From positions 1 through 58,251 of the forward strand of contig DASXUJ010000109.1 in the NCBI GenBank assembly GCA_036504895.1: a stretch of 58,251 nucleotides of DNA, in the 5' to 3' direction. Position numbers and translations under genes: made by a program. The DNA is from Syntrophorhabdaceae bacterium (GTDB lineage Bacteria > Desulfobacterota > Syntrophorhabdia > Syntrophorhabdales > Syntrophorhabdaceae). This document shows, one piece after another, positions 3,216-5,897 of the stretch. Below the pieces are notes generated by a model, which searched no databases, was not told where the DNA came from, and saw only the letters and a list, made by a program, of their open reading frames with translations. Position 1 is the first letter of the stretch, and each line of letters starts with the position of its first letter.

Positions 3216-5108
3216 ATGTCTTCCTGTGTATTAAGAAATACTTTACTCTCCTCACGAAGCGTGGAGACGGTCGTTTCCCTTCCGGAGAACGCGGAATTAA
3301 GCGCCTCCCTTTTCGATCTACTTACGAAATTCCAGGATATCAAAAAGTTTGCAAGCGAGATCCATACCGAGATTCATCTGGTGAAGCCCATACTCAAGAA
3401 TCTCGGCTATGTATACGAATCGAAACCCAAATTTTTTGAAGAGCAGATAAAGAATCCCGACGTGGCCCTCTTCAGCTCCGAAGAAGAGAGGGTGAAGACG
3501 TCACAGTTATGGGGCACCCGGGAGTATTACACCAGTGCCCTCGGAATAGTGTTGTTGAAGAGATACGGCCGGAACCTTCATGAAGGCATAAGCGGTTTCT
3601 ATCTCGAATTTGAGAACAAAATGCCCCTCTATCAGATGCTCTATCTCCTCAAGAAATCGAGAACGCCGTGGGGCATGCTCACCAACGGGAAACAGTGGAT
3701 CCTGATGAAACGACCGGTTCAATTCGAAACCAGGGTTATCGAGATAGATCTCGAGCGGGCGGTCTTTGAGGAAGATCTGGAGGCCCTTCGCCTCTTTTGC
3801 GGGGCTTTCTCCTGCGGGGGACTTAAAAAACTGCTTCCCCAGGCCCTCGAAGACGAGAGGACCACCCTCATCCGTCAATTAAGCGAGAAAAGACATCTTT
3901 TTCAGGAAAAGCTTCGCGGTCAGAAACGGAAGGTCGATTTTTATCCTACCGCGGTGGATATGTACCAGTCCTTCTTCGGGGGCTGGAAACTCCCTTCCAC
4001 CGAGCTTTATTTGCACGAGAAGAATGTGGATGTGGGGGGAAGGGGTGTAACCGATCGAAGCGTTGCCAACAGCTACGATCATGCGGACATCTTTTCCTAT
4101 GTCTTCAGCAAAACGGGGGGGGATATAAACCCTAACCTCGAGCAGATCATGCTCGCCGACCGGAACAGGAAGCTTACGAAGGAAGACATTTTTTCCCTGA
4201 GGATCCTCGATATCACCCCCGGTTTCGGCAACTTCACCACCCAGCTCGTTGATGCCCTGGCGTATATTTCCTTTATCCTGCCTTACAGGGAGAGAAATAC
4301 CTTCAGGGGGGAATGGGAGGAGGAGAAGAGCCTGAAGAAGCACATTCTCGATACGGTGCTTTACGGCATAGAAAGGTCGCATATTACTTTCGATATCCTT
4401 CAGAACACGATGGAGAACCGTTTCGGCATTTACGCGAGAAACTACAGACTCGGTAATCCCCTGATAGGCATGCCTCTTAAGAATATTTCAAGCATTGTCG
4501 ATACAACCAATCAAATGGCACTTTTCAACAAACATCCCAAGGAGATGATCGCCGAATTCAAAGAGCTTTACGCCCTCTTTTTCTCTCTCTCCGATAAGAT
4601 CAAGGAAGACCTGCAGATAAGGATGGCGACTGAAATACGGCTCAAGACCTTTACCGGGCGGATCAGAGACCTCATGGACGTGATGACTGCCACCTATTTT
4701 ACCAAGACCGTCGAAAACAGACGGATTCAGGATATGATTTTCAGTCTGGACGGTAACGAAGCAGCCTGGGCCGCCATAAAGAGCCAGGACTGGTTCCGGG
4801 AGTCTAAAGAGATTGCAAAGAGAAACGGCTTTTTTCATTTAGAGATAGAATTTCCCTTTCTCCTGACTAACGCCTTTGATTTCATTTTCGTACAGCCCGC
4901 GCTCAATTATGCATGGGAAGAGGAGCTGCCTCTTGCAGAGGCTACGAAAGCCTTTGTTAAAAGAGCCATGCCTTATCTGAAGCAGGAGGGGAAGCTGGTG
5001 ATCATTTCTCCTCACGCCATCGATCAGCTCGTGCCCGAACTGAAGCGCTCGAAGAGATATGAAGTAGAATCGGGCGAAGGCCTCTGCATCCTTAAGAAAA
5101 AAATCTAG
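3216..5108 (+). CDS. Degenerate Eco57I/type IIG-like restriction-methyltransferase homologue
   Basis: 630 residues, co-linear with fused nuclease-methyltransferases (Eco57I, type IIG, PglX-like). N-terminal part: 'PDVALF' (about residue 82), 'LLKRYGRNL' (about 115) and 'WGMLTNGKQWIL' (152-163), the last a hallmark of this nuclease domain. Methyltransferase part: 'LDITPGFGNF' (about 330) in place of DPACGSGNF, 'YGIER', 'GNPLIGM', then 'FHLEIEFP' before 'FDFIFVQPAL' (about 560) in place of NPPY. The glutamate of the nuclease ExK triad and the catalytic NPPY are both lost, yet the frame is intact. It is probably a pseudoenzyme with a retained binding role; that is inference. No specificity subunit or partner nuclease lies nearby. 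The start at 3216 has no clear ribosome site. Confidence 0.75.
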   Translation: MSSCVLRNTLLSSRSVETVVSLPENAELSASLFDLLTKFQDIKKFASEIHTEIHLVKPILKNLGYVYESKPKFFEEQIKNPDVALFSSEEERVKTSQLWGTREYYTSALGIVLLKRYGRNLHEGISGFYLEFENKMPLYQMLYLLKKSRTPWGMLTNGKQWILMKRPVQFETRVIEIDLERAVFEEDLEALRLFCGAFSCGGLKKLLPQALEDERTTLIRQLSEKRHLFQEKLRGQKRKVDFYPTAVDMYQSFFGGWKLPSTELYLHEKNVDVGGRGVTDRSVANSYDHADIFSYVFSKTGGDINPNLEQIMLADRNRKLTKEDIFSLRILDITPGFGNFTTQLVDALAYISFILPYRERNTFRGEWEEEKSLKKHILDTVLYGIERSHITFDILQNTMENRFGIYARNYRLGNPLIGMPLKNISSIVDTTNQMALFNKHPKEMIAEFKELYALFFSLSDKIKEDLQIRMATEIRLKTFTGRIRDLMDVMTATYFTKTVENRRIQDMIFSLDGNEAAWAAIKSQDWFRESKEIAKRNGFFHLEIEFPFLLTNAFDFIFVQPALNYAWEEELPLAEATKAFVKRAMPYLKQEGKLVIISPHAIDQLVPELKRSKRYEVESGEGLCILKKKI

Positions 5109-5110
5109 AA

Positions 5111-5836
5111 TTACAACCTGATCTCCAGCCCGTCCTCGCCGAGAAGAAGAGGGGCGTGGAGTATACCCCTGAAATCATCCCAATCCGGGTAAAGGTGGGT
5201 AAGGATCACCCTTTGCGGCTTTGCCTCGCCCACCACTCTCTTCAGAGTTTCAAGGTTCATATGACCCTTCACCTTTTTTTCGGGAAACGCGCATTCGGCA
5301 ATAAGAAGCTTCGCATCTCTTGCAAGGCTCACGAGATTGGATGAATAATCAGTATCACCCGTAATTACACACCGCGTGCCGTCAACGATCAGGGTCACGC
5401 CTATTGATTCACGGTTATGATTCATCTTTTTAGTCTCAATGCGGAGCCCATCCTCCTCGATTGAGCCGGAAGGCAAGCTTTTTACGGTAAGCAGGTAGTG
5501 CTTTGGCGCAAGCCACGGATAGACCGCTTTTAGGCCCCGGAAAAATTTATGCATCCCCTGCCCTCCGATCAGGGAGAGGGGTTTTTCCCTGGCAGTGAGG
5601 CCGTAATTGCAGGCGAAAAGGAAGGTGGAGAGATCTGCCGTATGGTCGACATGAAAATGGGTAATGATCAGGATATCGATGTCATCGACGACGTACCCGA
5701 ATTCAAGGAGCCTGCGTACCACGGCAGGGCCGGCGTCTATCAGGATTGTCTTTCCCGCCCCATGAACGACGTACGAGGAGGAACCTCTTTTGAGGGAAGG
5801 AATGGAGGTCCCCGTGCCGAGTATCTTAATCCTCAT
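5111..5836 (-). CDS. MBL-fold hydrolase, RNase Z-like
   Basis: Metallo-beta-lactamase-fold protein of 241 residues. It opens with 'IKILGTGTSIPS', typical of the RNase Z/phosphodiesterase branch, and carries the metal motif H60-F-H62-V-D64-H65, a later 'ITGDTDYS' and the C-terminal 'VILTHLYPDW'. It is likely a cytosolic phosphodiesterase or tRNA 3'-processing type enzyme; the lack of an obvious exosite arm makes true RNase Z uncertain. I placed the start at ATG 5836, with GGAAG just upstream, rather than at TTG 5878, because the family begins at this strand. It converges on the RM-like gene with a 2-base gap. Confidence 0.85.
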   Translation of the reverse strand: MRIKILGTGTSIPSLKRGSSSYVVHGAGKTILIDAGPAVVRRLLEFGYVVDDIDILIITHFHVDHTADLSTFLFACNYGLTAREKPLSLIGGQGMHKFFRGLKAVYPWLAPKHYLLTVKSLPSGSIEEDGLRIETKKMNHNRESIGVTLIVDGTRCVITGDTDYSSNLVSLARDAKLLIAECAFPEKKVKGHMNLETLKRVVGEAKPQRVILTHLYPDWDDFRGILHAPLLLGEDGLEIRL

Positions 5837-5897
5837 CCCGTCTTCCCTTCCGTCGCGCACGCTTATGGTCTCGCGCAACCCATTCCGGCTCCGCCTC

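Follow-up and report, generated by a model that had tools for sequence, protein, structure and literature searches.

The gene at positions 3216–5108 (+ strand) of the window, by which we mean the whole 58,251-nucleotide stretch of Syntrophorhabdaceae DNA analysed here, encodes a 630-residue protein that is a class-wide conserved derivative of a type IIG/DrmMI-type protein. Judged from the alignments, the adenine-methylation motif has been replaced throughout the family, the replacement is fixed, and the target-recognition domain (TRD) is absent. In the view that we favour, with a probability of about 0.5, the front two thirds of a type IIG/DrmMI restriction-methyltransferase have been exapted as a non-mobile housekeeping protein, which acts via its nuclease-fold domain.

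A single-copy gene under strong purifying selection

The open reading frame starts with ATG and contains no internal stops. The assignment of the start codon is supported by an N-terminal 'RNTL' that is conserved among the homologues in an alignment of 34 sequences. A homologue (45–69% identical) is encoded in 42 of the 46 genomes of the class (Syntrophorhabdus-type bacteria), so the ORF is real and not a chance frame; the gene is also present in 41 of the 60 relatives searched. Deep sampling covered this one class, in which the named records of the clade are Syntrophorhabdus, 'Syntrophus sp.' and 'Deltaproteobacteria' MAGs. Outside the class no family members were found and the matches were to canonical-type relatives only. 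Literature searches did not find the family described. Each carrier genome has a single copy, full length wherever the contig allows, except in G027. Three of the four class genomes that lack the gene belong to a sister family (f3); the fourth is G009, where the absence is likely an assembly gap, since the flanking cytochrome b gene is missing too and there is no close metallo-β-lactamase-fold (MBL) gene.

The gene is single-copy, vertically inherited and under strong purifying selection. Pairwise dN/dS has a median of 0.12 and a maximum of 0.18 (31 pairs with dS < 1.5). By region, the N-terminal nuclease-like domain is the most constrained (median 0.066), with 0.175 for the linker and 0.116 for the methyltransferase-like domain. 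The gene tree and the rpoB tree of 24 genomes have 18 of 21 splits in common and show no strong conflict (patristic r 0.92), the family evolving at about 3.6 times the rate of rpoB. The initial annotation had taken the stop-free 630-codon frame as a sign of continuing selection and the protein as a repurposed Eco57I-type derivative. Both claims hold up, as dN/dS is about 0.12, not near 1, and the motif losses described below are fixed. Recent decay in the window genome alone is ruled out by the family-wide motif changes and the same ratio. A slowly decaying restriction-modification (R-M) pseudogene, to which the lost catalytic residues, a faster copy with K560 in G004 and a frame broken close to the 3′ end in G027 might point, is extremely improbable; only one of the complete copies lacks an intact frame, dN/dS is 0.12 and 76 positions are invariant across the 34 sequences, and for the family these selection data refute it. 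In the G027 copy (L018, contig C31) the frame breaks near residue 598 and the last 75 residues lie in another frame, the result of either a sequencing error or early decay. The faster-evolving G004 copy (L042) has K560 for Q560 and new neighbours, in a genome with no cytochrome b gene, and may possibly be under relaxed constraint.

As a rule R-M genes are mobile and occur patchily, and defence genes are usually patchy and horizontally mixed in their distribution. Among viral contigs, 308 pattern matches included no relatives; phage records held no homologue, and plasmids no close homologue, the matches there being distant full-length N-6 methylases, mainly haloarchaeal, at about 24% identity. 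It seems unlikely that the protein is a stand-alone sensor of phage or DNA damage that has retained the DrmMI/IIG role but no longer methylates. Defence proteins are its nearest relatives and its nuclease-fold domain is strongly conserved, but the gene is single-copy, congruent with rpoB and at a fixed locus, in most cases downstream of a respiratory operon; it adjoins no defence genes and has no phage or viral homologues. For the same reasons, and given the lack of a close plasmid homologue, the earlier proposal of an anti-phage sensor is not supported. Its companion proposal, that the protein inhibits related modification enzymes, is disfavoured by the lack of a strong Eco57I match in 23 of the 42 carrier genomes, the window genome among them (PF07669 at E 1e-10, a threshold of our choosing; weaker matches are mostly shorter ORFs and maybe unrelated methyltransferases).

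Fold and domain layout

The family profile (34 homologues) aligns over residues 4–600 with a profile of the larger relatives (hhalign 99.8%, E 5e-29), the latter built from four proteins, two complete (1363–1368 residues) and two partial. In full-length Eco57I-type IIG/DrmMI proteins, the region homologous to it is thereby the N-terminal two thirds. PADLOC gave a weak match to type IIG restriction-methyltransferases (E 4e-9). Searches of the protein returned no Pfam family at E 1 and no NCBIfam family, the Pfam Eco57I model matched none of the 34 family members at E 0.1, and a sequence search of the PDB produced spurious matches only. The AlphaFold2 model of the whole protein (pLDDT 87.9, pTM 0.89) has PglX/BrxX (top, E 2e-5) and DrdV as its best Foldseek matches. 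In VIA-align, residues 24–630 of the model superpose on DrdV 1–579 with Z 15.2 and an rmsd of 14.0 over 391 residues, the large value presumably reflecting a different placement of the domains in the model; over the methyltransferase part, LlaGI, MmeI, PglX and CamA match.

The N-terminal PD-(D/E)XK-fold (nuclease-like) domain comprises residues ~28–205 (3297–3830, + strand, as all features below unless stated). Modelled alone (pLDDT 89.6), it matches the DrdV nuclease (Z 11.7, 2.7 Å over 133 residues), an HsdR fragment (Z 11.5) and BpuSI (Z 10.9). Further matches of this model are two human mitoribosomal proteins (chains 5 and s; Z 8–10, up to 172 residues), possibly another domesticated nuclease fold. 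A helical linker, residues 206–320 (3831–4175), contains no invariant positions and replaces the far longer central region of full-length relatives. The methyltransferase-fold domain, residues 321–630 (4176–5105), ends at the equivalent of DrdV 579, PglX 612 or MmeI 591, about 70 residues beyond motif IV, with no TRD after it. Everything past motif VI is missing, including the TaqI-like specificity domain, which occupies residues 1022–1139 and 1062–1227 in full-length relatives. By alignment and model, the protein has kept the nuclease fold and the methyltransferase core and has lost the TRD. The initial annotation had overlooked both this truncation and the strong shortening of the central helical region. 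Its recognition of the part order and landmarks of Eco57I/IIG/PglX proteins agrees with the profile alignment and with the fold matches to PglX and DrdV; its label of a 'DNA-recognition' pseudoenzyme is unsupported, because the TRD is absent in both sequence and fold alignments.

With type IIG/IIL enzymes (Eco57I, DrdV, MmeI, BpuSI) the family shares a PD-(D/E)XK-fold domain, a helical linker and a gamma-class methyltransferase fold in the same order. The profile alignment and the fold matches show common descent and the same fold for both domains. It differs from them in lacking a C-terminal TRD, NPP[Y/F/W], the Glu of PD...ExK (PD and K are kept) and any Pfam Eco57I match, in its changed motif I, and in being a vertical core gene whereas theirs are mobile R-M genes. 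A DrmMI model (class 1 DISARM, PADLOC) is matched by 27 of the 34 family members and, at E 1e-98 to 1e-114, by full-length relatives; unlike DrmMI, the family is about half as long and has no specificity domain, and no DISARM genes were seen alongside. PglX of BREX has the same methyltransferase fold, with NPPY, GSG and a C-terminal specificity region, and has no nuclease domain (PMC11341690). The family, in contrast, has a nuclease-fold domain and altered GxG and NPPY motifs, with no BREX neighbours seen.

The methyltransferase and nuclease sites

Residues were checked in the 34-sequence alignment and by comparison with full-length IIG/DrmMI proteins. The landmarks WGMLTNG (residues 152–158, 3669–3689), GNPLIGM (4452–4472, the counterpart of canonical GNSLIGA) and FFHLEIEFP are conserved in the family, each with a homologous stretch in the canonical proteins. 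The position of NPPY/NPPW is occupied by Q560-P561-A562-L563, which is followed by the family-specific invariant residues W567 and P572 (4893–4931). Q and P are each found in 33 of 34 sequences, the remaining first residue is K, and N, D or S never occurs at the first place among the 34 aligned homologues. The SAM motif I (ILDITPGFGNF, residues 330–340, 4203–4235) reads L-D-[M/I]-T-P-[G/N]-F-G in the family in place of DPAMGSGHF; T334, P335 and G338 are invariant, the first glycine of GxG is changed in 13 of 34 sequences and a Phe fills the loop in 30. The motif II acid E386, in GIERSH (4365–4382), is invariant. Segments predicted to line the SAM site are richer in invariant residues than the remainder (9/31 versus 67/599, p 0.007). 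Both changes had been noted in the window gene, as NPPY to QPAL and as an altered SAM loop DITPGFGNF; the first proves to be QPxL-type family-wide, with NPPY in no homologue, and the second aligns on DPAMGSGHF.

From these residues the site has almost surely lost the ability to methylate adenine at N6, and SAM binding may still be compatible with the retained E386 and G338. The aromatic residue of the motif in gamma-class enzymes holds the flipped base. We think it quite unlikely that the protein is an active methyltransferase of other specificity, with the QPxL motif serving RNA or protein instead of adenine in DNA. The invariant motif II acid and G338 and the conserved GNPL segment would fit such an enzyme; the changed GxG glycine, the Phe in the loop and a QP[A/S]L motif without the base-holding aromatic residue would not.

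The nuclease-like domain presents a different picture. E52, the helix acid of the nuclease signature (3369–3371), is conserved in every one of the 32 sequences that are not gapped at this position, and D82 of the 'PD' half-motif (3459–3461) is invariant (33/33). The former ExK (canonical EAK) is L113-L114-K115 (3552–3560): none of 34 sequences has D or E at the Glu position, where L, V, M, Q, I, S, F or A is found instead, and all 34 keep the Lys. The loss of this Glu was correctly recognised before, and no homologue retains it; it may have left the nuclease dead. K115 opens a family-specific segment that runs to Q140 (KRYGRNLxEGIxGFYLEFENRIPxYQ, 3558–3635), in which 13 of 26 positions are invariant, among them Q140 and E133 (codon 3612–3614; 34/34). 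E133 lies four residues before the Pro that opens the next helix, and its position is D or E in 8 of 9 canonical relatives. At the canonical nuclease positions (E53, D88, E118, K120, D136 and Q143 in the relatives), the family keeps an invariant E, D, K or Q at five of six, which is the fair count, as E133 was chosen with its invariance already known. Residues 126–133 are poorly modelled (pLDDT < 50 in the N-domain model), so that E133 adjoins a loop that might become ordered upon binding.

Cfr10I and NgoMIV lack the strand acid, for which an acid further along the chain substitutes, an arrangement termed 'PD-XXK-E' (PMC551604, PMC6344858). The present family is similar in that the Lys is in place, the strand acid is gone (L113) and an invariant acid follows later in the sequence; the proteins differ overall, and the likeness is one read from sequence. 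The sequence features of a permuted PD-XXK-E site are present, and by analogy with these enzymes E133 could possibly take the place of the lost Glu. The initial annotation, which omitted the invariance of D82, K115, Q140 and E133, had called the protein 'doubly degenerate'. For the methyltransferase half, with NPPY replaced, this stands; for the nuclease half we do not accept it, because the remaining signature residues (E52, D82, K115 and Q140) and the candidate substitute acid E133 are invariant.

Genomic context and proposed function

Of 35 loci, 28 have the gene downstream of those for a Rieske protein, cytochrome b and an 81-residue membrane protein, which belong to a respiratory operon that in full also has succinate dehydrogenase-type subunits. 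The gap to the preceding genes is 30–41 bp in 26 loci, 221 bp in L016 and 1.35 kb in L043 of the second family. Neighbours searched in Pfam (11 loci compared) were respiratory, MBL-fold, TPR or unassigned proteins, and no DISARM or BREX genes were seen beside the gene in these loci. An empty site is found in two f3 genomes (G038 and G040; loci L114 and L115), which have the same operon and the MBL and epimerase genes with nothing between; here the gene of the 81-residue membrane protein abuts the MBL gene directly. The rpoB tree (FastTree) places f3 outside with weak support (0.77), which bears on whether the gene was gained after the f3 split or lost in f3.

The window itself retains the right border (MBL, epimerase), and the gene follows an unrelated ORF, weakly matched to TolB_N, and 222 bp to which no gene is assigned. 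This ORF (2406–2993), whose match is below threshold and whose product is probably secreted, sits where most relatives have the respiratory operon. The convergent MBL-fold gene (5111–5878, − strand) is a conserved border of the site and is not proposed as a functional partner; it matches the anti-Pycsar Apyc1 family below threshold and is a neighbour kept in many relatives. No cytochrome b match was obtained anywhere in the window genome (G000), G001 or G004, all of which retain the gene. For these three genomes this is an apparent lineage loss of the respiratory module that most relatives have.

The location raises the possibility, which we hold to be real though on balance rather unlikely, of a catalytically dead scaffold or regulator that would sense SAM or another small ligand in the altered methyltransferase pocket and signal to the respiratory module, with which the gene is usually co-oriented and probably co-transcribed. 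The close spacing behind the Rieske, cytochrome b and 81-residue protein genes and the enrichment of invariant residues along the SAM-lining segments are consistent with this. Against it, three genomes keep an intact gene without cytochrome b, sister-family genomes have the operon without the gene, and the invariance of D82 and K115 is hard to account for if the nuclease site is idle. An obligate functional tie to the respiratory operon is weakened by these genomes with the gene or the operon alone.

The near-universal presence of an intact gene in the class and its inheritance from parent to offspring suggest an everyday function, in line with the housekeeping protein that we favour. Such a protein would be unable to methylate adenine in DNA and would not recognise DNA sequence as its relatives do. 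The N-terminal nuclease-fold domain would be the working part, predicted to bind nucleic acid without sequence specificity at the remodelled invariant site (E52, D82, K115, E133, Q140 and the segment 115–140), and it may cut nucleic acid, the active site then being a permuted PD-XXK-E one. Docking or ligand sensing would fall to the former SAM domain. A more specific version, which we put forward with low confidence, is a core housekeeping nuclease or sensor with a permuted PD-XXK-E site, not aimed by a TRD and gated by a ligand via the former SAM pocket, whose gene was captured at the end of the respiratory operon in the ancestor of the carrier families.

If upheld, the housekeeping reading would give a clear example of how a defence enzyme became domesticated as a core gene throughout a bacterial class. 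The family, which no Pfam or NCBIfam model covers, would then be a warning against labelling such genes as defence systems, and its defined empty site and invariant residues make the new role directly testable.
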